Below, one piece after another: positions 12,065 to 21,999 of a DNA stretch of 29,023 nucleotides. Position numbers and translations under genes: made by a program. The stretch is from a virus. The notes under the pieces were generated by a model. The model searched no databases. It was not told the DNA's origin and worked only from the letters and a program-made list of their open reading frames with translations. The DNA is taken from positions 1-29,023 of the IMG/VR virus record IMGVR_UViG_3300044949_001417; one strand, written 5' to 3'. The stretch's first letter is position 1, and each line of letters begins with the position of its first letter.

Positions 12065-12237
12065 CGCCGCCCGACCGGACTGAGGAGGAGCAGGCCCGGC
12101 TGGATCGTGAGTTCGCCATTCTGGTCGCGTGCGGCTTCGAGCCCGAGGAGCTGTACGAGATCGAGATGGAGCCAGAGAAGGGCGTGAGCGTCTGGCGGAT
12201 GATCCTGCCGGAAAAGACGCTGCGCAAGTGGCCCTAG
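12061..12237 (+). CDS. 58-aa acidic small protein, end of late operon
   Basis: 58 aa from GTG at 12061 (GTGA overlap with the hydrolase stop). It is strongly acidic and helical (EEEQARLDREFAILVACGFEPEELYEIEMEPEKG) with a C-terminal WRMILPEKTLRKWP. There is no membrane segment, so it is not a holin. The reading frame stops at TAG inside the first CTAGAC motif (12234-12239) of the attachment region. The function is unknown; translational coupling suggests a partner of the hydrolase. Confidence 0.6.
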   Translation: MTPPDRTEEEQARLDREFAILVACGFEPEELYEIEMEPEKGVSVWRMILPEKTLRKWP

Positions 12238-12319
12238 ACGGCGTTTTCCGCTAGACCACAGACTAGACGGATTCCGGCCCGCTCGTAAGTCCTTGTCCCG
12301 CAAGGCGCACGGGAACGCC

Positions 12320-12376
12320 GCGACGGATTGCAAATCCGTTGCGCAAGCTTCGTGGGTTCGAATCCCACCCCGGCCT
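12320..12376 (+). other. tRNA 3'-part attachment site core (attP candidate, tRNA-Cys-like)
   Basis: The sequence reproduces the 3' part of a tRNA gene: an anticodon arm with 5-bp stem ACGGA/TCCGT (12323-12327, 12335-12339) and loop TTGCAAA carrying anticodon GCA (12330-12332); a T arm GTGGG-TTCGAAT-CCCAC (12352-12368); then an acceptor strand CCCGGCC (12369-12375) and discriminator T, the base expected for cysteine tRNA. No matching acceptor 5' strand (GGCCGGG) or normal D arm exists upstream, so it is not a complete tRNA gene. Phages that integrate into tRNA genes carry just such a 3' segment, which restores the gene after recombination. The variable region is 12 nt, long for tRNA-Cys. It lies next to the integrase 3' end, with phage genes on both sides, so attP rather than attL/attR is the better reading. 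Confidence 0.75.
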
Positions 12377-12386
12377 TTTGCCCCTT

Positions 12387-12410
12387 GATTCGCAGGGTTT
12401 TCCGCGAATC
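12387..12410 (+). repeat. inverted repeat beside the attachment core
   Basis: GATTCGC (12387-12393) and GCGAATC (12404-12410) are perfect 7-bp arms around a 10-nt spacer (AGGGTTTTCC). The repeat lies 11 bp after the tRNA-like core. There is no T run after it, so a rho-independent terminator is unlikely, although two convergent operons meet here. It could be an accessory binding site of the recombination complex. Confidence 0.4.
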
Positions 12411-12524
12411 GTCCGAGGAATCAGGCCCGCCGCGTGCGGGTTGGTCTAGGACTGCCACCCCCTCAACTTTCGCCAGCAGGCCCCATCTGGCGCACCGAAT
12501 GTCGGGAACCGACTAGACCACGGG

Positions 12525-13796
12525 CTAGACGGACGGCATGGCGTTTACGGTGGCCGTCCTCGCCTTGGCCTGTTCCTTCGCGTACACGTTCAAGTACAGC
12601 GACGGCGACGAGTGCCGCGTCAGGCTCTGGCCCGTCTTCACATCCGGTGCCGTTGCCGCGACCCGCGTCGCGTAGGTGTGGCGCAGGCAGTGAAAGTCGA
12701 TCGAGCCCTCGGCCGTCTTGACCGGCACCCCGGCGGCTCTCGCGTCTGCCTTCAACGCCGCTCCCCATCGCTTGCTGCCCGGGAACAGCGCCGCCCGCTT
12801 GGGCATGCTCTCGATCCACGCCTGCAGCTCGGCCGCGAACTCGCTCGGCAGCGGCTGAACGTCGTGCCGCCGGCGCTTGGAGTACCCCGCCTCCACCGTC
12901 ACCGTGCAGGCCTTGAAGTCGAACGACACCCGCGTGAGCGTCCCGATCTCGTTCGCACGCAGGCCCGTCGCTGCTGCCAGTCGGTACGCCCACACGCGGT
13001 GGGGGAGCGACAGACGCCGCTTCCCCCCGGACGCGATCTGCCCGATGACCACCACCTCGGACGCTTCCGCCGCGGCTTTGATCTTGTCGAACTCCGCCGG
13101 CGTCAGGGCACGGCGCCGCAGCTTCCGCGTCGGCTCGGTCCTGACCATGTCCAGATCCCGCAGTTGATCCTCGCGCGTTCGCTTCCGACGCCAGAGCCAG
13201 GTCGAGAACGCTTTGCACGCCCGGATGTAGCCGTTGCGGGTTCGGCCTGACAGCGGCTTGTCGTCGTCGCGCAGGGAGGCCACGGCGCGGGAGACGCGGG
13301 AGGACTCGAAGTCGGCCAGCGTGCGGATGTTCGCGGCTGTCAGCACCCGCTGGATCTGGGCTTTGGTGTCGCGGACGTAGCGGGCGGAATCGTCCTTGTC
13401 GGCGAGGTGCTGAAGGTACCCGATCGTGTTTCCCGAGCCGGTCAGGTGGTGCTCAATCGACGTGCGCGAGTGCGTGGCCAGACTCGAGTCTCGCTCATCG
13501 TGTACGCCCGCCTTCTGCCGAGCGACCTTGAGCACGAGTGCCGCGGCGATCTCTTCGGCCCCGGTGCGGCTGGGGGTTCCCGCGCTCTGCTCGCGTTTCT
13601 TCCCGCTCGCGTCGGTGTACTGAATCGTCCAGTTCTCGTCTCGGACCTCAAGCCGCTTGCCATCGGCGGCGAGCTTGGCCCAGCGTTGGTCGCCCGAGGG
13701 TGTGACCCATTCGACGCCCCGGACGCCCCGGCGCGTGGATGGGCGTGCCCCGCCCGGCATTGGCAGTCGCCGGAGTTTGCGGTAGATGAAGGGCAC
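12525..13796 (-). CDS. int: tyrosine recombinase, phage integrase
   Basis: 423 aa from a GTG at 13796. The C-terminal catalytic domain has the tyrosine-recombinase residues: Arg I in ATGLRANEIG (R280), a Lys in the following hairpin (GYSKRRR, K307), the HxLRHT box (FHCLRHTY, H369/R372/H373), the second His (TRHSS, H395) and the nucleophile Tyr in YLNVY (Y405, 10 residues after that His, as usual). Residues about 120-215 form the core-binding helical domain, and residues 1-90 a basic, strand-rich N-terminal region suited to arm-site binding. It integrates the phage at attB and, with an excisionase, cuts it out. Its 3' end abuts the attachment region with CTAGAC repeats. It begins 4 bp after the stop of a membrane-protein gene, so the two are cotranscribed. 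Confidence 0.95.
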   Translation of the reverse strand: MPFIYRKLRRLPMPGGARPSTRRGVRGVEWVTPSGDQRWAKLAADGKRLEVRDENWTIQYTDASGKKREQSAGTPSRTGAEEIAAALVLKVARQKAGVHDERDSSLATHSRTSIEHHLTGSGNTIGYLQHLADKDDSARYVRDTKAQIQRVLTAANIRTLADFESSRVSRAVASLRDDDKPLSGRTRNGYIRACKAFSTWLWRRKRTREDQLRDLDMVRTEPTRKLRRRALTPAEFDKIKAAAEASEVVVIGQIASGGKRRLSLPHRVWAYRLAAATGLRANEIGTLTRVSFDFKACTVTVEAGYSKRRRHDVQPLPSEFAAELQAWIESMPKRAALFPGSKRWGAALKADARAAGVPVKTAEGSIDFHCLRHTYATRVAATAPDVKTGQSLTRHSSPSLYLNVYAKEQAKARTATVNAMPSV

Positions 13797-13799
13797 GGG

Positions 13800-14174
13800 C
13801 TATTGCCGGTTGGCGATGACTTCGTTGACGATCTGCATGACGAACCAGAGGCCGCCGAACAGCAAGAAGCCCACCGGCACGAACAGGATCATGCCCCACA
13901 TAACGCGGTACTGCAGGCCTCCGTGTATCCGCTTGATCTGCAGCGCGGCTCGCATGTCCTCACGCAGCCCAACGACCTCGGCTCGGAGCTGTTCTAGTTC
14001 CGACACCACGGTGCCCGGGTCGTCTACGTGGTCGGCAACCTGGACAACCTCCCCCGCAAGGTGCCCGTCCTCTGCTGCCGTGCGGGCTGCAGCGGCCTTG
14101 TCGGGCGCTTGGGTCAGGATTCGGTACTCGCGGCCGGTTTGGCGGTCGGCACATGTGACAGCAAAGCTTGGCAT
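13800..14174 (-). CDS. small membrane protein in the lysogeny operon
   Basis: 124 aa from the ATG at 14174, preceded by AGGTGGG; a longer frame to 14318 would run into the repressor gene and is rejected. Residues 1-50 are soluble with beta-like segments (FAVTCADRQTGREYRIL), residues about 55-85 are likely coiled coil (VVSELEQLRAEVVGLREDMRAAL), and the C-terminus is one or two membrane helices (MWGMILFVPVGFLLFGGLWFVMQIV). It sits between repressor and integrase on the same strand, so it is probably expressed in the lysogen. Proteins of this place and shape are often superinfection-exclusion or other lysogenic-conversion factors, but no family is recognised. Confidence 0.6.
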   Translation of the reverse strand: MPSFAVTCADRQTGREYRILTQAPDKAAAARTAAEDGHLAGEVVQVADHVDDPGTVVSELEQLRAEVVGLREDMRAALQIKRIHGGLQYRVMWGMILFVPVGFLLFGGLWFVMQIVNEVIANRQ

Positions 14175-14182
14175 GGACCCAC

Positions 14183-14863
14183 CTACATGGGAGGCAACTG
14201 CCTCCGGTGCTGAATGACGACGCCGAACTGCTCGACGTGCTCGCGGGGCACGACCTGCGGCGGATACGCGGCGTTGTCCTTCCGCAGCAGGAGCGACCCG
14301 CCCTCTTGAGGATACCAACGGCAGAGCATTCCGCCCGGACGCGGATGATCCGCCCCGAGCCGGACGTAGACCACAGATCCGGGCGCGGGCATGTTGTCGG
14401 CGTCCGGCGGGATGTTCCGCACGATCACGAGATCATTCTGGTTTAGCGTCGGGGCCATGCTCGACCCGTCCACCACCAAGGCAAAGACGTTTTCCAGATC
14501 GGTCTGGACATCCACGTCCGTGTACGCATACCCAAATCGACTGTCCACACTCCACTCCGCGTTATCGACTTGCTGGCCTGCCGCGGTGCGATTGATAATC
14601 GGTATTCGCGGCTTCGGCCCAGAGGCTAGCACGCTTTCGAGATCGGAGGCCTTGAGTTTCAGCGCCTTTGCCAGTCGCGGAAGCTCCGCGAGCCTGATGC
14701 GCGTGTCGCCCCGCTCCCGACTGGTGATAGCTCCAGTGGACAAGTTCACCAGCTTGGCCAGTTCAGCCGCCGACATGCCCAGCGCGTCTCGGCGTTCTCG
14801 GATGTAGGTGCCAATGTCCAAGACCCAAAGATACGGCGTGACGTTTTCCACAATCTGGACCAT
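14183..14863 (-). CDS. CI-like repressor: HTH plus S24/LexA-type domain
   Basis: 226 aa from ATG at 14863. Residues about 17-75 are an XRE-type helix-turn-helix (IGTYIRERRDALGMSAAELAKLVNLSTGAITSRERGD). The linker holds an Ala-Gly (TAAGQQ, A95-G96), the classic self-cleavage dipeptide. The C-terminal half is an S24 domain with the serine motif VVDGSSMAPTL (S135). The catalytic lysine expected in the 'VKR/FKK' strand is not there: the aligned stretch is GGMLCRWYPQEG, with Cys181 at that place, so self-cleavage may be lost. It should keep the lytic genes off in lysogens by binding the CTAGAC-like repeats upstream. No good ribosome-binding site precedes the ATG, so a short-leader or leaderless message, as for lambda cI, is likely. 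Confidence 0.9.
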   Translation of the reverse strand: MVQIVENVTPYLWVLDIGTYIRERRDALGMSAAELAKLVNLSTGAITSRERGDTRIRLAELPRLAKALKLKASDLESVLASGPKPRIPIINRTAAGQQVDNAEWSVDSRFGYAYTDVDVQTDLENVFALVVDGSSMAPTLNQNDLVIVRNIPPDADNMPAPGSVVYVRLGADHPRPGGMLCRWYPQEGGSLLLRKDNAAYPPQVVPREHVEQFGVVIQHRRQLPPM

Positions 14864-14872
14864 GCAATAATG

Positions 14873-14930
14873 CTAGGCAATATCTAGACTTGCGATTAGA
14901 CGCTAGATTTTTGCTAGACTTTGACTAGAC
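14873..14930. promoter_or_regulatory. operator array: six CTAGAC-like repeats between repressor and early genes
   Basis: The divergent intergenic region holds CTAGGC (14873), CTAGAC (14884), TTAGAC (14896), CTAGAT (14903), CTAGAC (14914) and CTAGAC (14925). Starts are 11, 12, 7, 11 and 11 bp apart, so most copies face the same side of the helix. The area is also the most A/T-rich of its surroundings. It must contain the repressor promoter (minus) and the early promoter (plus). A TTGACT at 14921-14926 overlaps the last repeat and may be the -35 of the early promoter, but I see no convincing -10 at the right distance. Binding by the repressor is inferred from position; the shared hexamer at attP makes other binders possible. 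Confidence 0.75.
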
Positions 14931-14960
14931 GAGGCTCGATTCTGTCGATATTCTGTGGGT

Positions 14961-15191
14961 ATGACCAAGGCGTCACCCACCCCCCACAAGAACGTGCAGG
15001 CCTACCTGCCGGAGCATGAGGCGATTCGCAAGACCGCCCGCGATTTCCGAGTTCCCAACCCAGTTGTCGTCGCGGCGATGTGGGAAGCGTGGAACCGGCT
15101 CGGCGAGCAAACGCAGGAACGCATGCTGCTCGGCGCTCATCGTCGTCGTCCAAACCTGCAGGGCAATCGCGTTGCCGGAGGTGCGGCGTGA
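14961..15191 (+). CDS. small early regulator candidate (Cro position)
   Basis: 76 aa, first gene right of the divergent control region, ATG at 14961. The frame could start earlier but the ATG here follows GTGGGT. The sequence MTKASPTPHKNVQAYLPEHEAIRKTARDFRVPNPVVVAAMWEAWNRL shows two short helices with a strand-like start, loosely like ribbon-helix-helix proteins; the tail is basic (HRRRPNLQGNRVAGG). By position it would be the Cro-equivalent, but no standard HTH is evident. It is coupled by a GTGA overlap to the next gene. Confidence 0.5.
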   Translation: MTKASPTPHKNVQAYLPEHEAIRKTARDFRVPNPVVVAAMWEAWNRLGEQTQERMLLGAHRRRPNLQGNRVAGGAA

Positions 15192-15409
15192 GCATGCCCC
15201 GCGTCACCGAAGTCGCTCCGGCGGCTCTGGACTACCGCGACGCCGCGCGGTTCCTCGGCGTGTCTGAATCCTCTCTGCGTCGCGGAGCCAAGGACGGCTC
15301 CGTGCGCAGCGTTCATGTCCTCGGACGCCGCGTGTTCCGAATCGCGGACCTGCGTGAGTTCCTGAACAACCAAGCCAATCAGCAGCGCGACGCGGCGAAA
15401 GCCACCTGA
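15188..15409 (+). CDS. excisionase/MerR-like HTH protein
   Basis: 73 aa from GTG at 15188 (GTGA overlap) or ATG at 15194. The core LDYRDAARFLGVSESSLRRGAKDGSVRSVHVLGRRVFRIADLREFLNN is a textbook small winged-helix of the excisionase/MerR-like group (HTH_17 type): helix-turn-helix, then a wing with a conserved Arg (GRRVFRIADL), then the 'LREFL' helix. Such proteins bend DNA at att sites for prophage excision or act as early regulators. The N-terminus of the terminase small subunit here (25164) has the same fold, as expected for that family, so this gene should not be confused with a packaging protein. Confidence 0.75.
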   Translation: MSMPRVTEVAPAALDYRDAARFLGVSESSLRRGAKDGSVRSVHVLGRRVFRIADLREFLNNQANQQRDAAKAT

Positions 15410-15465
15410 TCTCACACGCGCCGGTCCTGCGTCGAGAGGCGTGGGGCTGGTTTCCAAAACGCGAA

Positions 15466-15492
15466 CGGGCCGCGTCTTGTACACGCGACCCG
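15466..15492 (+). promoter_or_regulatory. leader hairpin before the 15514 gene
   Basis: The 104-bp gap 15410-15513 can form a stem CGGG/CCCG (15466-15469 with 15489-15492) plus CGCGT/ACGCG (15471-15475 with 15483-15487), with a single mismatch between them and a 7-nt loop. It lies 9 bases before a strong CGGAGG ribosome-binding site (15501-15506). It may be a leader control element or a weak terminator; it has no T run. Confidence 0.4.
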
Positions 15493-15513
15493 CTCAACAC
15501 CGGAGGTAACCCG

Positions 15514-16266
15514 ATGCAGATGAACAGTATCCATCCCGGCTCCCAGCGTCTTGCCGAAGCGATTGCGGCGGGGCATCCGATTGCGGCGACTGCGGCTCAG
15601 GCCCGCGAGTTGGTCGAGATCGAGAACCACAACGCTGCCGCGAACGCTGCCGAGATCGTCGCCGAGTCGATCCTCTGCCGCGAGTGTGGCAAGGTTGGCC
15701 CGCAGGGACGCATGGCGAGCGGGGCTCTCATCCCGATCTGCCGCGCGTGCAAGGCTGCGGCGGACGCTGCGGAAGTGGCGAAGGTGTCGCACCTGAGCAA
15801 CGCGCTCAAGGTCGCGTTCGCTCCGGTCGTCGATGCGGCCGAGCAGCGTAAGGCTGAGCACGCCGCTTGGGTGAAGCGAATCGACGAGACGCAGGCTGCA
15901 CGCACGCTCGCGCCTGCCGCTGTCAAGGAAACGCTGAGCAAGGTTGCACTTGACTGCGAAGCACTGGAGACGGTGCTCGCCCTGGCCGTCACCGCTCTTG
16001 ATCCGAAGGCGATGAGCGACTCCGGCGAGGAGGTCGTGATCTACGCCCGTGCGATCCGTCACGTTCGCCACGTCCTCATCGGCGAGATGGCGGACAACGA
16101 CGAGGCCCAGCTCGCGAAGTTCGTGCGGGCGTTCGCTGACCGCGAGGAACAGCGCATTGACGACGAGATGGGCGACGTGCTTGTCGCGTCGGAGCTTGAC
16201 GAGATCGCGTCGGACCTCGAAGGCGAAGTGACGCGCCGGAAGCAGCGAATGGCGGTGGCATCGTGA
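15514..16266 (+). CDS. Ala-rich helical protein with a zinc-ribbon-like CxxC pair
   Basis: 250 aa, ATG at 15514 behind CGGAGG. Residues 1-50 are helical and Ala-rich. A four-cysteine site (CRECGKVGPQGR, then PICRACK; about residues 55-80) has the CxxC-x(n)-CxxC spacing of a zinc ribbon. The remaining two thirds are long helices, probably coiled coil (AEVAKVSHLSNALKVAF; VIYARAIRHVRHVLIGEMADNDEAQLAKFVRAFADREEQRIDDEM). I do not recognise the family. It heads the early recombination operon and is coupled to a tiny membrane protein. A nucleic-acid-binding or regulatory role is plausible. Confidence 0.6.
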   Translation: MQMNSIHPGSQRLAEAIAAGHPIAATAAQARELVEIENHNAAANAAEIVAESILCRECGKVGPQGRMASGALIPICRACKAAADAAEVAKVSHLSNALKVAFAPVVDAAEQRKAEHAAWVKRIDETQAARTLAPAAVKETLSKVALDCEALETVLALAVTALDPKAMSDSGEEVVIYARAIRHVRHVLIGEMADNDEAQLAKFVRAFADREEQRIDDEMGDVLVASELDEIASDLEGEVTRRKQRMAVAS

Positions 16267-16379
16267 GCCTCTACCAGCTCTCGCTCATCGTCGGCAGCGT
16301 CTCCGCGATGCTGCTCGCCGTGGGCCTGTTGGTCGCGTGTCTGCATCCGAGGGCGTTTCACATTGGGAGGGGACGGTAA
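16263..16379 (+). CDS. 38-aa single-span membrane protein
   Basis: A short frame from GTG at 16263 (GTGA overlap) encodes SLYQLSLIVGSVSAMLLAVG and on through LLVACLHPRAF, a clear single membrane segment with a basic C-terminus (HIGRGR). Its TAA overlaps the ATG of the next gene (TAATG at 16377-16381), so it is embedded in the operon by coupling at both ends. It is too short for a family call. Small early membrane proteins in phages often block superinfection or host functions; here that is speculation. Confidence 0.55.
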   Translation: MSLYQLSLIVGSVSAMLLAVGLLVACLHPRAFHIGRGR

Positions 16380-17239
16380 TGGAACCACGCACGATCGAAC
16401 ACGGCAAGCTCTACGACAACGTGTCATTCGCCGACTATTTGGCGTGGCCGTTCATGTCGCAGTCCACGCTGAAGGCTGGCAAGGACTCTTCCGCCCACCT
16501 GCGAGCAGCGATCGACGGCGAGCGCGTGAAGAAGCCCACCGACGACATGCTGCTCGGATCGGCCCTGCACACGGCGTTTCTGGAGCCTCACCTGATGCCC
16601 GAGCGCGTGGTGCTGTGGGATAACGGTGCCCGTCGCGGCGCGGAGTGGGAAGCGTTCCGTGCCGATCACGCGGACAAGATCATCCTGACCGCTGAGAACT
16701 ACGCGAAGCTGTCCGGGATGATCCGCTCGATCCGCAAGCACGCATGGGCGAAGCAGATCGCGGCGGACATGGGCCGTGTCGAAGTCTCGGCTGTGGACAA
16801 GATCGAGGGCGTGGCATGCAAAGGCCGCTGCGACATTCTCGAAACCGGCGATGGCATCGTGGACGTGAAGAAGGTCCGGTGCGGCGACCTGGGCGCGTTC
16901 ACCAAAGCGGTCATGGTCTTCGGCTACCACATCCAGTCGTACATCTACCGCAAGATCTTCAACCGCGATCGGTTCATCCTGCTCACGGTCGAGGACAAGC
17001 CTCCTTTTGACGTGGTGCCTTACGAGCTGGCCCCGTCGATGCTCCGCGAGGGCGAGCGCGAGGCTGTCAGCCTGCTCCAGAACTACGCGTATTGCGAGCG
17101 TACGGGCTTGTGGCCTGGGCGCTCTGACGAAGTTGTGCCGCTTGAACTGCCCGAGTGGGCGGTCAATCGAGACGAAGCAATGTCGATCACGCTCGGCGGC
17201 GAGAGCGTGTTCGGCGGCGAAGAGGAAGGCTCACTGTGA
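16379..17239 (+). CDS. RecE-type PD-(D/E)XK exonuclease
   Basis: 286 aa from ATG at 16379 (an upstream in-frame ATG at 16337 overlaps the small membrane gene and lacks a ribosome-binding site). The protein carries the RecE/exodeoxyribonuclease VIII-like pattern: MSQSTLKAGKDSSAHL (N-terminal helix), LLGSALHTAFLEP (residues 58-70), the catalytic strand CKGRCDILETGDGIVDVKK (D152, then D162-x-K164 in place of E-x-K), and FGYHIQSYIY with the structural Gln186. RecE-type nucleases degrade one strand of duplex DNA ends to leave 3' tails for annealing. No RecT or Redbeta homologue is recognisable; the next gene occupies that place. Confidence 0.8.
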   Translation: MEPRTIEHGKLYDNVSFADYLAWPFMSQSTLKAGKDSSAHLRAAIDGERVKKPTDDMLLGSALHTAFLEPHLMPERVVLWDNGARRGAEWEAFRADHADKIILTAENYAKLSGMIRSIRKHAWAKQIAADMGRVEVSAVDKIEGVACKGRCDILETGDGIVDVKKVRCGDLGAFTKAVMVFGYHIQSYIYRKIFNRDRFILLTVEDKPPFDVVPYELAPSMLREGEREAVSLLQNYAYCERTGLWPGRSDEVVPLELPEWAVNRDEAMSITLGGESVFGGEEEGSL

Positions 17240-17646
17240 CACGGCCCACACTTGAAGGACGGCTGTTGTTCCCGAGCAACTACCTGTGCGCGGAAGACCT
17301 GCAAGGGCGCGATGCTGTCGTGGAGATCGACTCGGTTGGCACCGACGATCTTCGCGTCGAAGGCGGAGCGACCAAGCGGAGTTTCCTGATCGGGTTCAGG
17401 GGCAAGCAGAAGAAGCTCGTGTGCAACAAAACGAACGCGACGATGATCGCCAGCATCCACGGCCAAGAGGCAAAGTCGTGGGTGGGGAAGCGGATCACGC
17501 TGTACCCCACGAAGACCAAGCTCAAGAAGGAAATGGTGCCGTGCGTGCGAGTGCGACCGGCATCGCCGGACGCGGCGGCGCCGCAAGGTGACGACATCCT
17601 GAACGGCGCATCGCCGAACAGCGAGCCCGACGAGTTCCCCGGCTGA
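17236..17646 (+). CDS. phage recombination-module protein, conserved family of unknown function
   Basis: 136 aa from GTG at 17236 (GTGA overlap with the nuclease stop). The pattern 'PSNYLCAEDLQGRDAVVEIDSV', then 'KRSFLIGFRGKQKKLVCNKTNA' and 'WVGKRITLYPTKTKLKKE' matches a phage protein family I know from many siphophages (AdLqGr.v.v.I..V; K.vL.F.gk.K.LvLNKTNa..I; W.GkrI.LYp). It is usually annotated hypothetical and is often near recombination genes. The strand-rich middle would fit an OB-like single-strand-binding fold. The last 30 residues are a disordered acidic tail (SPDAAAP...EPDEFPG), as in many ssDNA-binding proteins. It may serve as partner of the nuclease; not shown. Confidence 0.6.
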   Translation: MTRPTLEGRLLFPSNYLCAEDLQGRDAVVEIDSVGTDDLRVEGGATKRSFLIGFRGKQKKLVCNKTNATMIASIHGQEAKSWVGKRITLYPTKTKLKKEMVPCVRVRPASPDAAAPQGDDILNGASPNSEPDEFPG

Positions 17647-17964
17647 CACCACGGCTGGCGCGGGCGGACACCTCCCCCGCGTCGGCTTGCCTCTCTCCTC
17701 GTGCTGTCGCCGCTGGCGGAATCGGCGGCGACGGCTTCTGAGTTCTCCTCGCGTTGTGCGTCGTCGAAAGGTGACGCGCCGCAGTCCGACGGGTTCGCCA
17801 CACCTTTCCCGTCGGTCTCATCCCTCCCGCGGCGCTTGTTGCGGCGCGGGGGTTTCAAGCCGGTCGCGTTGACCGGCAGCGCGTGGGTTTAGGCACGCGG
17901 TTCCTGTCGGCGCGACAGCGACGGCAGGGGATTCAGATTCGCGGCGAGGCCGCAGGAGGGTTTC
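17647..17964 (+). ncRNA. hairpin-rich non-coding region, structured RNA candidate
   Basis: No protein-like frame fills this 318-bp gap. On the plus strand it can form a run of stems: CGCGGG/CCCGCG (17659-17664, 17676-17681); a 10-bp stem 17704-17713 with 17725-17734 (one G-U); GCGTC/GACGC (17758-17762, 17773-17777); GAAAGGTG/CACCTTTC (17766-17773, 17801-17808); CCGACGGG/CCCGTCGG (17786-17793, 17808-17815); a 9-of-10 stem 17826-17835 with 17841-17850; GCCGGTC/GACCGGC (17859-17865, 17871-17877); CGCGTG/CACGCG (17880-17885, 17894-17899); CTGTCG/CGACAG (17904-17909, 17913-17918); GCGGC/GCCGC (17941-17945, 17949-17953). The fourth and fifth cross and share one base, so they are alternative or pseudoknotted. 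The last stem sits just before the ribosome-binding site of the next gene. High GC raises the chance level of hairpins, but this density is much above the coding sequence around it. Confidence 0.5.
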
Positions 17965-18351
17965 ATGGAAGGTTTTCATGGTTCGATCTCGTATGTCGGA
18001 TGCCAGACGGTCGTGCAGTCGGGGCAGAGCAACGTCCTTCGCTGCCGAAACTGGGTGGACAAGGACGGCAACCCGAGCAGCGGGTACGCCCACGGAATCG
18101 GCTTCTCGGTGGCGTTTCAGGACGGGCCGCGTGGCAAAGACGACAACGGCACACTGCAACCCGCGAACGGCGCGTTCGTGGAAGACTTGCTCACGGCAGC
18201 GATGCAACGGCTGGCCTTCTTCCAGAACTCGCGGTTCAACTGTTCGGAGAACGCGGAGGCAATCGAACACATCAACAAGGCCCTGCAAGCCCTGAATCGT
18301 CGGGCCAGCGGTCGCGCTCAGCGTGGCGTTCTTGGAAGCAACCAAACGTGA
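17965..18351 (+). CDS. Tad1/Acb2-like protein (candidate cyclic-nucleotide sponge, anti-defence)
   Basis: 128 aa with a strong AGGAGG ribosome-binding site (17954-17959), ATG at 17965. From about residue 50 it follows a phage family pattern I recognise from proteins described as Acb2/Tad1-domain: FQDGP (51-55), NGAFVEDLLTAAMQRLAFFQ (68-87), then FNCSENAEAIEHINKALQALNRR (91-113) and GRAQRGVLGSN. This is two antiparallel helices preceded by strands. Characterised Tad1 and Acb2 proteins bind signalling nucleotides made by Thoeris and CBASS and so block host defence. The 48-residue N-terminal part (YVGCQTVVQSGQSNVLRCRNWVD) would be the extra strands. The family call is from memory of motifs, so the anti-defence role is a hypothesis; ligand residues cannot be verified here. 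Confidence 0.6.
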   Translation: MEGFHGSISYVGCQTVVQSGQSNVLRCRNWVDKDGNPSSGYAHGIGFSVAFQDGPRGKDDNGTLQPANGAFVEDLLTAAMQRLAFFQNSRFNCSENAEAIEHINKALQALNRRASGRAQRGVLGSNQT

Positions 18352-18437
18352 ACCGATTGGCACCTCCCCCGCCGCGAGGTGAGGGGGATTCGAGACGGCG
18401 GCGTGAAAGCGTGCCCGTCTCATTCAAGGAGCAGCGA
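18352..18437 (+). promoter_or_regulatory. two hairpins between the Tad1/Acb2-like and methyltransferase genes
   Basis: This 86-bp gap contains CACCTC/GAGGTG (18361-18366, 18376-18381) and GAGACGG/CCGTCTC (18392-18398, 18415-18421), the second ending just before the AAGGAG ribosome-binding site of the methyltransferase. The first hairpin begins CACCTCCCCCGC, which is also present at 17670-17681 in the structured region upstream, so the two gaps share sequence. Each may attenuate or process the message. No T run marks a terminator. Confidence 0.4.
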
Positions 18438-18863
18438 ATGGACTCGCAGACGAAAGAACGACAGTTCAGCCGCGTGCTGTTCAGCAGCGCGTCGGATGAC
18501 TGGGCAACTCCGGCAGCGGTCTACGACGGGCTGAATGCCGAGTTCCATTTCGTTGACGACCCGTGCCCATTGAAGGGAACTGAGAACGGATTGCTGCGCG
18601 AGTGGCAGTCGCCCTGCTTTGTGAATCCGCCGTACAGCGACATCTATCCGTGGATGGAGAAGGCGTCGCTAGAAGCGGCGGCGGGAAAGACCATCGTTCT
18701 TCTGGTGCCTGCTCGCACCTGTACCCGCTGGTGGCACGACTTCGCGTTGAAGGCCAGCGAGATCCGGTTCATTCGTGGGCGGCTCAAGTTCGGCACAGCG
18801 ACGACCGGCGCGCCGTTCCCGTCCTGCATCGTGGTGTTTCGTGGAACGGAGGTGCGCAAGTGA
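18438..18863 (+). CDS. phage Dam-type DNA N6-adenine methyltransferase
   Basis: 141 aa, ATG at 18438 after AAGGAG. The pattern SASDDWATPAAVYDGLNAEFHFVDDPCP, the catalytic NPPY (CFVNPPYSDIYPW, residues 61-72), KTIVLLVPARTCTRWWHDFA and IRFIRGRLKFG...APFPSCIVVF is that of the short phage DNA N-6-adenine-methyltransferase family. The enzyme transfers a methyl group from S-adenosylmethionine to adenine in DNA; its target site is not deducible. It may protect phage DNA from host restriction or mark it. With the Tad1/Acb2-like gene next door it may form a small counter-defence cluster. Length is normal for the family and all motifs are intact. Confidence 0.85.
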   Translation: MDSQTKERQFSRVLFSSASDDWATPAAVYDGLNAEFHFVDDPCPLKGTENGLLREWQSPCFVNPPYSDIYPWMEKASLEAAAGKTIVLLVPARTCTRWWHDFALKASEIRFIRGRLKFGTATTGAPFPSCIVVFRGTEVRK

Positions 18864-19240
18864 AATCCGCCACCAACGCACAAGGCACCCTCTTCGCCGC
18901 ACGGACGACGTTCTCGGGCCGAGTCGAGTACGCCCCACACAACGGCACCGCGACAAGCAAGGCCGCAGCACGCGCGATCGACCGCAACCACGGCAAGCCC
19001 ACCGGCGAGTCGATGATCCTCAAGATGCTCGCCGCGCCACGGTGGGCGAACGGTGCAACGCGAGAAGACATCGAGGACACCACGGGCCTGTTGACGCAGA
19101 CGGTTTGCCCGCGCGTGAACGGGCTGGTGCGGCTCGGCCAGGTGCAGGTCATCGGCACGCGGAAGTTGCGGAGTGGGCGCGAGGGCGACGTGTACCAGAT
19201 CACGGATGCGGGGCGGGATCGCGTCGGGGGTGCAGCATGA
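18860..19240 (+). CDS. winged-helix protein, unknown
   Basis: 126 aa from GTG at 18860 (GTGA overlap with the methyltransferase stop). Residues 1-50 are low-complexity Ala/Thr with a basic helix. Residues about 50-126 read as a winged helix: GESMILKMLAAPRWANGATREDIEDTTGLLTQTVCPRVNGLVRLGQVQVIGTRKLRSGREGDVYQITDAG, i.e. helix, helix-turn-helix with 'GL..QTV.PRV..L...G', then a two-strand wing ending in VYQIT. This resembles phage and archaeal proteins of the MarR/ArsR-like wHTH class. It is probably a regulator or a DNA-end-binding accessory; no target is seen. Confidence 0.65.
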   Translation: MKSATNAQGTLFAARTTFSGRVEYAPHNGTATSKAAARAIDRNHGKPTGESMILKMLAAPRWANGATREDIEDTTGLLTQTVCPRVNGLVRLGQVQVIGTRKLRSGREGDVYQITDAGRDRVGGAA

Positions 19241-19530
19241 GCAGCCTTTTCGACGCAACCTGTCGCACCGTGCTCGCCCCGTACCTCCCGCGCGGCCTCA
19301 CGCTTGCCCCGCAGTACGCGGACCTGACGCCCGCAGCGTTGGCCGTCGCGTGGTCGTACTTCCCCGACCACGGCGACCGGCGCGTGTGGTGCTTCCCCTT
19401 CGGCGGTGCCCTTCACGGCCTGTGCCGCGAGCGGTTCCAAGTCGTCTGCGATGCGTTGTCGCGGCACTTCGACAGCATCGGCAGGGGCATGGAGTGGATG
19501 GCGACGGCGAGCGAAAGGAGCAGCGGATGA
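19237..19530 (+). CDS. small early protein, unknown
   Basis: 97 aa, ATG at 19237 (ATGA overlap). The protein has a hydrophobic-aromatic middle (ALAVAWSYFPDHGDRRVWCFPFGGALHGLCRERFQVVCDALSRHF) with three of its four Cys spread widely, and no known motif. It lies in a run of five coupled small genes after the methyltransferase. I cannot assign a family. Confidence 0.55.
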   Translation: MSSLFDATCRTVLAPYLPRGLTLAPQYADLTPAALAVAWSYFPDHGDRRVWCFPFGGALHGLCRERFQVVCDALSRHFDSIGRGMEWMATASERSSG

Positions 19531-19892
19531 GCGTTCAACACACCCCCGGCAACGGCCAGCACACGCTGGTTCGCATCGAACACACCACCCCCGGCGACGC
19601 TCGCGTGGTCGTCGAGTTCGAGGACTCCGACGACGAGGCCGGCGACCAGATCGCAACGCCCGGCTGGTGCATCCGCTGGGCGCTGGACAGGTTCCACGGC
19701 GGCACCGACTTGTACGTCGCTCTCGAACTCGCGCACGCCCTGTCGTCGCTGGAGTTGAACGACGACGACACGCGGTACTTGGACGACGCGGCGAAGAAGG
19801 CACTTGCGGCGATGGTGGATGCGGCGAAGGAACTGCACGAGCACCAGGCCGAGAAGCGGCGGAAGCGGAAGGCCGAAAGGAGCGGAGGATGA
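19527..19892 (+). CDS. acidic small protein, copy 1 of a tandem paralogue pair
   Basis: 121 aa, ATG at 19527 (ATGA overlap) behind AAAGGAG. It starts MSVQHTPGNGQHTLVRIEHTT, continues with an acidic strand (VVVEFEDSDDEAG) and WCIRWALDRF, then helices and a strongly basic end (HQAEKRRKRKAERSGG). The neighbour at 19889 has the same layout and nearly the same opening (GQHTLVRIEHT), so the pair arose by duplication. The family is unknown to me. A basic C-terminus after an acidic body may bind nucleic acid. Confidence 0.6.
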   Translation: MSVQHTPGNGQHTLVRIEHTTPGDARVVVEFEDSDDEAGDQIATPGWCIRWALDRFHGGTDLYVALELAHALSSLELNDDDTRYLDDAAKKALAAMVDAAKELHEHQAEKRRKRKAERSGG

Positions 19893-20296
19893 ACATTAGG
19901 CATGTTGCGGCAGAGGGACAGCACACGTTGGTTCGCATTGAACACACGCACGAGGCTGGCGATGCAGTCCAGCGTGTCGAGTACGAGTTCTCAGACGACC
20001 TTGAGGCGATCGACTCGTCTGCTGGCATTGGTCCTTGTTTCTTGTGGGCACTGGACGCGATCACCGGCAGTTCACGGAGTCGAATGACAGACGAGTTTGC
20101 GAGCGCGCTGGACATTCTGGACAACCTCGACGACGACCCGCTGTCGCTCGACGCGGAAGAAGCGGAGTTGAAGCAGAACATGATCGACGCGGCGTGCATG
20201 GTGATGCAGTGGAAGCGTGACAAGGCAAAGCGAAAGAAGGCCGCCACCAAGCAAGCCGCCGAAGACGCGGCGAACGGGATCGGGGGTGGCACTTGA
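19889..20296 (+). CDS. acidic small protein, copy 2 of the tandem paralogue pair
   Basis: 135 aa, ATG at 19889 (ATGA overlap) behind GAAAGGAG. It shares with the upstream gene the motif GQHTLVRIEHT (residues 10-20), an acidic segment (VEYEFSDDLEAIDS), an aromatic FLWALDAI corresponding to IRWALDRF, and a Lys/Arg-rich tail (KRDKAKRKKAATKQAAEDAA). Copies have diverged strongly in the middle, so both are probably maintained by selection rather than a recent accident. The function is unknown. Confidence 0.6.
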   Translation: MNIRHVAAEGQHTLVRIEHTHEAGDAVQRVEYEFSDDLEAIDSSAGIGPCFLWALDAITGSSRSRMTDEFASALDILDNLDDDPLSLDAEEAELKQNMIDAACMVMQWKRDKAKRKKAATKQAAEDAANGIGGGT

Positions 20297-20514
20297 CGCT
20301 ACCAGCACCAGACAGCCCCGGCATGAAGGGGGCCGAGTACGCCAGCAACAAGGGGTGTGGGCCGCTTGTCGCTCGCGTCATCAACGAGTCTTGCGGCGTG
20401 GTTTACATGGAGCGTTGGAACCCCCGCACGAAGTACCCGGTGCGGACGGCGTTCACGCTGCCGACGCGGTGCATTGACAAGAGCGGCTGGAAGAAGATCG
20501 GCGGTGGCACGTGA
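20293..20514 (+). CDS. 73-aa small protein with TTG start
   Basis: The frame begins at a TTG (20293, TTGA overlap with the previous stop) behind GGGGGTGG; an ATG at 20323 gives a 63-aa alternative. The body is basic and strand-rich (GPLVARVINESCGVVYMERWNPRTKYPVRTAFTLPTRC). No family is recognised. It ends 20 bp before a large perfect palindrome. Confidence 0.5.
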   Translation: MTLPAPDSPGMKGAEYASNKGCGPLVARVINESCGVVYMERWNPRTKYPVRTAFTLPTRCIDKSGWKKIGGGT

Positions 20515-20534
20515 CGCACGCCGTTCGCATGGAT

Positions 20535-20566
20535 CACAGTGCGAGGTATATATACCTCGCACTGTG
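20535..20566. repeat. perfect 32-bp palindrome before the RusA-like gene
   Basis: The half-site CACAGTGCGAGGTATA (20535-20550) is followed directly by its exact reverse complement (20551-20566) with no spacer; the centre is TATATATA. The palindrome lies 4 bp before the GGAGG ribosome-binding site (20571-20575 area) of the resolvase gene and fills most of the 64-bp gap 20515-20578. Possible roles are a dimer-binding operator, a cruciform, or an mRNA hairpin controlling translation. The A/T centre would also suit a promoter -10 region. It has no T run, so a rho-independent terminator is unlikely. Confidence 0.8.
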
Positions 20567-20578
20567 GCAGGAGGCCAC

Positions 20579-21097
20579 ATGAACCGCAACTTCCCCCACA
20601 AGGAAATCGCCGACGCCCAGGCTGGCATCGTCGCCGTCGCCGAGCCGTCGCCCGCGATCTTCAGCTTCACCGTCCCCGGCGTTCCCGGCACCGCTGGCAG
20701 CAAGAAGTACGTCGGGCACCACGCGGGCAGGCCGGTGCTCATCGACGACGCCAAGAAGGGCAAGGAGTGGCGGGCGTCTGTGCAGTTGTTCGCGCGGCAG
20801 GCTGGCGTGCAGCCGATCGCCGGCCCGGTGCAACTGTGCGTCACGTTCTACATGCCGCGTCCGGCTGGGCACCACAAGGCCGGCGACAGATCCAAGCCCG
20901 TCAAGGACTCGGCGCCAGCTCGACCCCTGACCAAGCCCGACTGCACGAAGATGCTCCGGGCCGTAGAAGACGCGCTCAAGGGCATCGCGTGGCACGACGA
21001 CTCGCAGGTCGTGTCACAGCGAACTGAGAAGCACTACGCGGGCGCCGAGGGGCCGCGGTGCTTCGTGGCGATCTCTGAACACACGGATGCGTTCTAG
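20579..21097 (+). CDS. rusA: RusA-family Holliday junction resolvase
   Basis: 172 aa, ATG at 20579 behind GGAGG. The RusA pattern is clear: strand PVQLCVTFYMPRP (residues 83-95), RPLTKPDCTKMLRAVEDALKGIAWHDDSQVV (116-145) with acidic residues D121, D131, D140 and D141, and a following Lys (EKHYAG, K151). RusA dimers cut four-way DNA junctions symmetrically and are common in lambdoid phages, resolving recombination and replication intermediates. In the PDCTK segment a Thr stands where E. coli RusA has its second Asp (DLD), a variation seen in phage members. About 30 N-terminal residues precede the usual start. A perfect palindrome lies immediately upstream. Confidence 0.85.
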   Translation: MNRNFPHKEIADAQAGIVAVAEPSPAIFSFTVPGVPGTAGSKKYVGHHAGRPVLIDDAKKGKEWRASVQLFARQAGVQPIAGPVQLCVTFYMPRPAGHHKAGDRSKPVKDSAPARPLTKPDCTKMLRAVEDALKGIAWHDDSQVVSQRTEKHYAGAEGPRCFVAISEHTDAF

Positions 21098-21120: not shown

Positions 21121-21999
21121 ATGATCGTCGATCCTGATTTCCTCGACCACTGGAAGACGCTGATGCTGGCCGACCTGCTGGGCGACCCGCAGGCACCTCT
21201 CTACGTCATCCGCATCTGGGGGCACTGCCAGATGCGCCGGCAGTGGGTCTTCGACAGCCTCCCGCCGTCTGCGCTCAAGGCTCTGTGCCGCTTCGATGGC
21301 GCTGCCGACAAGCTGGACGCCGCCCTGACGACCGCAGGATTCATCCGCCGCGACCAGGCTGGCACCGTCACCGTCTGCGAGTGGGAGATCTACAACGCGA
21401 GCCTCGTGGCGAACTGGACCAACGGAAAGAAGGGTGGGCGTCCGCAGAAATCCCGAGAAGAAAAACCCATGGGTAACCCATCGGTAACCCATGGGCTACC
21501 CATGGCTAACCCATGGCAAACCCATGGAGAACCCACTCCATCTATCTCTTCTTCTTCATCCTCTCTGTCTTCTCTGTCTTCTTCTTCTGAGGCGACAAAA
21601 CCGAACGCGGAGCCGTTCGAGTCCGACACGCCCGCCCCGTGCCCCCCGGAAACCCCCGGCTTCTTCCGGTTCATGAACGCCTACCCGTCGCACCGCAAGA
21701 ACGCCCGGTACGCAGCTGAAGACCTGTGGCGAGCCATGGTGCTGGAACCCAAGACCGAAGCGATCCTCACCGGCCTGGAGGTGTGGAAAGCCTCCGACCA
21801 GTGGCGCGAGGGCAAGGTGAACCGCATCGACAACTTCCTCAAAGACAGCATGTGGGAAAACCTCCCACCGGAGAGCACCAATGGACCCGATCACCGAAAT
21901 CAATCGCATCGCCGCCCGACATCCGAAGACGCCCGCCGTGCAGCGGATCGCGCCAGCCGTGTCGGAGGCGATGCGCGGCCTGCCGTCAAGGTCTACTGA
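21121..21999 (+). CDS. replication initiator, lambda O-like, with internal origin
   Basis: 292 aa, ATG at 21121 behind AAGGAAG. The N-terminal domain (residues 1-95; DPDFLDHWKTLMLADLLGD, LYVIRIWGHCQMRRQW, AGTVTVCEWEIYNASLVANW) resembles the winged-helix DNA-binding part of phage initiators. Then comes a Pro/Gly/Asn/His-rich segment with an 11-residue repeat (PMGNPSVTHGL, PMANPWQTHGE) encoded by DNA iterons, a serine-rich linker, and a C-terminal domain (FFRFMNAYPSHRKNARYAAEDLWRAM ... NRIDNFLKDSMWENLPP) of the type that loads helicase partners. It would bind the iterons in its own gene and recruit the DnaC-like loader. The last 40 codons overlap the loader gene in another frame. Confidence 0.75.
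   Translation: MIVDPDFLDHWKTLMLADLLGDPQAPLYVIRIWGHCQMRRQWVFDSLPPSALKALCRFDGAADKLDAALTTAGFIRRDQAGTVTVCEWEIYNASLVANWTNGKKGGRPQKSREEKPMGNPSVTHGLPMANPWQTHGEPTPSISSSSSSLSSLSSSSEATKPNAEPFESDTPAPCPPETPGFFRFMNAYPSHRKNARYAAEDLWRAMVLEPKTEAILTGLEVWKASDQWREGKVNRIDNFLKDSMWENLPPESTNGPDHRNQSHRRPTSEDARRAADRASRVGGDARPAVKVY
21465..21541 (+). repeat. seven 11-bp iterons, probable replication origin
   Basis: ACCCAT (last copy ACCCAC) begins at 21465, 21476, 21487, 21498, 21509, 21520 and 21531: seven copies in exact 11-bp steps, consensus ACCCATGGSTA. Copies decay towards the end (ACCCATGGAGA, ACCCACTCCAT). All lie inside the initiator gene. This is the arrangement of the lambda origin, where the O protein binds iterons inside its own gene. 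An easily melted pyrimidine-rich stretch follows directly. Confidence 0.85.
21542..21592 (+). other. pyrimidine-rich candidate DNA-unwinding region
   Basis: Immediately after the iterons the plus strand is almost only C and T (TCTTCTTCTTCATCC..., ending TCTTCTTCTTCTGAGG) and is markedly less GC-rich than the rest of the window. It encodes a serine run (SSSSSSLSSLSSSS) that serves as a flexible linker. In the lambda origin an A/T-rich strand-biased stretch next to the iterons is where the helix opens; this looks equivalent. Confidence 0.65.

Follow-up and report, generated by a model that had tools for sequence, protein, structure and literature searches.

The window, as we call the whole 29,023-nt stretch of viral DNA analysed here, contains a structured RNA element that is real and is absent from Rfam. 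The element (17647-17933, + strand) is a non-coding chain of about 290 nt with eight separate hairpins, H1-H8, and starts directly behind the stop codon that ends the upstream gene. The array is independent of its flanking genes, since the genes on either side have been swapped in related phages while the array persists. Conserved but so far uncatalogued, this RNA structure comes from a phage lineage that has been little sampled, and its position is an exchange point for recombination modules and for the anti-defence cassette Tad1-Dam. We tentatively describe it as an intercistronic RNA hairpin array of an early operon that would punctuate the transcript in cis and serve as a seam for module exchange, a reading that falls a little short of an even chance.

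The gap and its hairpins

The gap from the stop codon at 17646 to the ATG at 17965 is 318 nt long. A codon-usage gene scan detects no gene within it, and all six of its frames differ between the window and a homologue as a result of 1-nt indels; no protein frame is kept across it. An earlier note on this DNA had described the gap as free of genes and as a possible new structured RNA. Both points are borne out, the second by covariation in homologues, by a folding signal on the sense strand (see below) and by the Rfam search. No family of Rfam release 15 matches the window at the curated/gathering score, and the best sub-threshold hit of a permissive search is M23 (22.7 bits against the 41.2 needed).

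The predicted RNA fold of the gap has an energy of -184.6 kcal/mol, whereas 100 dinucleotide shuffles average -153.1 (z = -5.34). None of the shuffles (0/100) matches it in this comparison, which the earlier note had proposed as a check. The gap also ranks first for energy excess among 198 windows in a 290-nt tiling of the entire 29-kb record. High G+C does yield stable folds, and the element might on that ground be taken for chance structure in GC-rich filler, or else for a decayed gene. This is extremely improbable and in practice already refuted: the shuffles, the homologues, the covariation and the strand bias oppose chance structure, and the reading frames, which are not kept, oppose a decayed gene.

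Two related phages carry the array. The first, a close relative on contig IMGVR_UViG_3300034103_001682 (L013), has a terminase 98% identical to that of the window, and its array at 2573-2858 is 87% identical to the window core. A covariance model built from two sequences, window and L013, matches both of them and a third, distant copy in contig IMGVR_UViG_3300035665_000143 (L030; 109 bits, E about 1e-30). The 16-mer of H5-H6 occurs in 12 contigs, of which only L030 and L018 (the contig of L013) have the array. The phage collection gave no match to the array, and plasmids gave only short chance matches. A pattern scan of genomes returned nothing, and neither did a search of genomes with the terminase for a host.

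Local folding gives the same eight hairpins in the window and L013. The stems within the gap stand in series and are 6-14 bp each, in agreement with the row of stems described before; the count of about ten comes down to eight that are conserved and one private to the window phage. H1 (17653-17687; 12+3 bp) and H2 (17703-17735; 14 bp) fold identically in the window and L013. They are separated by a C/U-rich single-stranded linker (17688-17702) with TCTCCTCGTG, a motif that recurs before H3, and H2 is followed by a second C/U-rich linker (17736-17750) with TCTCCTCGCG. The motif TCTCCTCGYGYTGT likewise precedes both H2 and H3. Across the array 39 of the 53 linker bases are C or U, the longer linkers being C/U-rich.

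H3 (17751-17782) has a GAAA tetraloop and an inner stem with two compensated pairs in L030. H4 (17783-17818) shows two compensated pairs in L013 and L030 and one mismatch. H5 (17824-17852) is followed by TTTCAAG, and H6 (17859-17877) has two compensated pairs in L030. H7 (17880-17899) is shorter by one pair in L013 and is replaced by a larger hairpin in L030, while the loop of H8 (17901-17930) reads GACA, GAAA or GAGA across the three phages. Another short hairpin, H9 (17941-17953), lies 5' of the AGGAGG ribosome-binding site of the next gene (17954-17959), where the earlier note had placed the last hairpin. It is indeed present there, but it is missing from L013 and L030 and lies outside the conserved element, which stops at 17933. 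All of these features are on the + strand.

Covariation and strand bias

Compensatory base changes have kept the stems in the homologues, which is the mark of a conserved structured RNA and bears on a second check proposed in the earlier note. Between the window and L013 substitutions touch 12 pairs, 8 of which still pair. The 4 broken pairs compare with 12 expected for randomly placed changes, and no simulation (0/300) is as low; when the positions are fixed, however, P is no better than 0.09. For the three phages the stems of L030 were aligned by hand, an alignment that favours structure and covers three sequences and few events. On this alignment the number of paired stem cells is 134 of 144, where 125.9 are expected (P 0.002), and both sides have changed in six pairs of H3, H4 and H6, where 2.7 are expected (P 0.013). 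In a model-fitted alignment the observed values are equalled by no shuffle (0/500), and sliding the structure lowers the score greatly. The helix-1 covariation of L030 in the covariance-model alignment is an artefact, as that part of L030 codes for protein, and is not counted.

The folding signal is found mainly on the sense strand. In four chains, the window core being the first, the sense-strand z values are -4.96, -4.09, -4.67 and -2.73, and the antisense values in the same order are -2.55, 0.01, -1.22 and -0.38. The sense-strand excess is due to G-U pairs, which make up 13 of the 88 pairs of the window array. A contrasting case is found in the same genome, in a gap between two early genes that holds a perfect 32-nt palindrome (20535-20566; CACAGTGCGAGGTATATATACCTCGCACTGTG), the single occurrence of this sequence in the window. 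That gap has z values of -4.56 and -4.82 and is symmetric across strands. Because it is structured equally on both, the palindrome is probably a DNA-binding site. The array, with its signal mainly on one strand, is therefore probably folded as RNA and not as DNA, and the molecule under selection is most simply an RNA of the same sense as the operon.

Module exchange and the Tad1-Dam cassette

The phage is lambda-like and temperate, with an integrase, a CI-like repressor and a repeat-rich operator-like region (14864-14960). Its rightward operon includes an exonuclease, the array, Tad1, Dam, RusA, an initiator with iterons, a DnaC-like loader and the gpA terminase. Beside the integrase, at 12313-12383, lies a partial tRNA (3' half; anticodon GCA, Cys) that is 91.5% identical in the genome of L030. 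It is probably the attachment site of the phage, located in a tRNA-Cys gene of the host. The hexamer CTAGAC has 11 copies in the window, where 3.9 would be expected, and these cluster in the operator-like gap (14884-14930) and around the attachment site (12234-12530). These copies are possibly repressor or integrase/excisionase sites. The frequency of another motif, GGGGATT, is no higher than chance.

Both sides of the array have been exchanged relative to L013, at whose locus the window DNA of 16394-17646 and 17934-18874 is unmatched. The exonuclease of L013 is 33% identical to that of the window, and the gene that follows it is RecT in place of the phrog_21613 protein, which has no assigned function and is encoded directly upstream of the window array (17266-17646, + strand). 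On the other side the L013 array adjoins a homologue of the phrog_1123 gene found at 18860-19240 (+) in the window (94% identical), with no Tad1 or Dam at that site. A short frame of about 38 aa at 16264-16380, with one hydrophobic stretch and containing LIVGSVSAMLLAVGLLVACLHPRAFHIGRGR, is kept in L013 despite changed flanks and likely encodes a small membrane protein.

The L030 copy retains H3-H8 directly ahead of a gene of the phrog_1123 family, the usual downstream neighbour of the array. For the first part of this copy the alignment runs only into coding sequence, which is not homologous, and H1-H2 and their linkers are lacking here. A second, shorter chain lies behind the SSB gene of the L030 phage and combines an H1-like hairpin, a C/U-rich linker and the H5-H6-junction unit. 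Between the two hairpin chains is a 346-aa gene with no family match (L030 905-2325, minus strand), which resembles cargo placed inside the array. Judging by the layout, its insertion may have split the chain and duplicated part of it.

As DNA the array acts as a seam, with recombination modules exchanged upstream and accessory cassettes such as Tad1-Dam exchanged downstream. It is quite improbable that the array is nothing more than a conserved seam in the DNA, a linker for recombination with hairpins that play a role as DNA or none. The exchange of flanking modules around a constant array and the apparent insertion in L030 fit such a linker, but a folding excess mainly on the sense strand, with G-U pairs, does not, and the symmetric palindrome gap of the same genome is unlike the array.

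The gene after the gap had been called Tad1/Acb2-like, and the first name is confirmed. It encodes a 128-aa homologue (17965-18351, +) of Thoeris anti-defence 1, for which the solved structures 8kbb and 7uav (PDB) are matched at E 5e-14 by profile and 4e-9 by single sequence. The second gene of the cassette is a Dam-family adenine methyltransferase (18438-18863, +; PF05869, 1.5e-21), and the gap between the two (18352-18437, +) holds two hairpins and has CACCTCCCCCGC in common with H1. Tad1-Dam is a cassette between the array and its usual neighbour, and it is absent at that place in L013 and L030. Nor was the array found at nine other viral loci with Tad1 relatives. No conserved association of array and Tad1 emerges from these loci and the two phages. 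The link of the array to Tad1 is circumstantial, and the array is not a private switch of this gene.

The earlier note had suggested either a riboswitch-like regulatory leader that might sense a nucleotide signal or a free phage RNA. A ligand- or RBS-controlled leader dedicated to Tad1 is highly improbable. In the folding model the Shine-Dalgarno sequence of Tad1 pairs with CUCUCC with a probability of 0.8-0.9 and costs 6.4 kcal/mol to open, and its pairing with C/U linkers is predicted in both the window and L013. The opening cost is not significantly higher than in shuffled leaders, however: in four cases it is reached by 9/80, 23/80, 58/80 and 36/80 of them, and translational control is therefore not claimed. 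Two phages have the array next to another gene, the nine other Tad1 loci are without it, and sensing of a nucleotide signal by the gap RNA finds no support.

Two crossing 8-bp pairings had further been proposed as a pseudoknot or a two-state switch. For GAAAGGTG/CACCTTTC, L013 keeps 4 of the 8 pairs (a GGUG/CACC core) and two detached ones, and L030 is without the 5' partner. The crossing pairing is not conserved while H3 and H4, the hairpins that compete with it, persist in the homologues, and the switch is therefore unsupported; this also counts against a dedicated Tad1 leader.

Possible functions and known systems

In each of the three genomes the array is placed on the coding strand between a stop codon and the next RBS. 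As punctuation, it would be an untranslated intercistronic segment of the early polycistronic mRNA, which we infer to be transcribed together with the operon, and its RNA is predicted to form eight separate hairpins with short linkers between them. Acting in cis, the chain would halt or slow transcription, or 3'-to-5' decay, at the junction of recombination genes upstream with accessory and regulatory genes downstream. It would thereby set the relative dose of upstream and downstream genes. If so, the uptake of accessory genes that land behind the array ready-regulated would be explained. The hairpins are not classic intrinsic terminators, because good U-tracts are absent (the 8 bases that follow each hairpin hold 1-4 U). 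Several other early gaps, in the window and in the genome of L030 (G016), have one or two hairpins in the space from stop codon to RBS. These hairpins are shorter, and the array looks like a long form of this habit of the lineage. That the array has eight hairpins where other gaps manage with one or two counts against punctuation.

The main rival, possible if unlikely, is a free trans-acting phage RNA, either processed out of the early mRNA or transcribed from a separate promoter, whose C/U linkers would bind a protein or the Shine-Dalgarno sequences of other mRNAs. The size of about 290 nt would suit such an RNA, as would the presence of TCTCCTCG twice in the linkers, identical in L013, and the persistence of the array whatever its neighbours. 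The + strand of the gap has no terminator-like site, though, and no promoter-like one, with 0 sigma-70-like sites in 13500-21000 by a consensus that may not be that of the host. The L030 copy before the common gene lacks the linkers in question, and the 3' end of the array leads directly into an RBS. A discrete eight-hairpin trans RNA of a new phage structured-RNA family, for example a decoy for a defence or RNA-binding protein of the host, or an anti-Shine-Dalgarno regulator, kept as its neighbours change, is rather doubtful. Any such free RNA would represent a new phage RNA family.

It is likewise rather unlikely that the array is a transcription attenuator or a put- or nut-like antitermination RNA, by which RNA polymerase would be loaded or modified within the early operon. 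In favour are the setting, a lambda-like early operon that follows a gene for a CI-like repressor, and the make-up of the array, whose GC-rich hairpins form a chain and carry pyrimidine tails. The array, however, is not at the transcript start but follows the operator region at a distance of about 2.7 kb, U-tracts are absent and no Rfam family is matched. A replication origin was also considered and rejected for the array, as the iterons sit in the replication initiator gene instead. There an 11-bp iteron (AACCCATGGGT) is present in 6.5 copies at 21464-21535, also with a strong folding signal. The lambda origin likewise has its iterons inside the initiator gene.

Among known systems, the promoter early stem-loop (PeSL) cassettes of T4-like phages are intergenic and are found where phage genes are shuffled, as outlined in PMC4503421 (citing Arbiol 2010, Comeau 2014). 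The array likewise lies at seams of module shuffling. Compared with PeSLs as outlined in that source, it is without an early promoter (the host consensus may differ from the sigma-70 one used) and without a U-tract stem-loop terminator, and it is a chain of eight hairpins in a lambda-like temperate phage. It thus lacks two defining PeSL features, the promoter and the terminator. GOLLD and ROOL, which are large structured RNAs of phages and bacteria, resemble the array in being non-coding and strongly folded, with a function long unknown (PMC12286853). The array differs as a linear chain of simple hairpins inside an operon, with no Rfam match. Both of these RNAs are larger than the array of about 290 nt.

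The put and nut antitermination RNAs are hairpins in the early transcripts of lambdoid phages, whereas the array is 2.7 kb into its operon, has eight hairpins and matches no family. The intercistronic stem-loops that partition mRNAs by differential decay in bacterial operons number one or two, against eight in series in the array. They share with it the placement of sense-strand hairpins between a stop codon and the next RBS.
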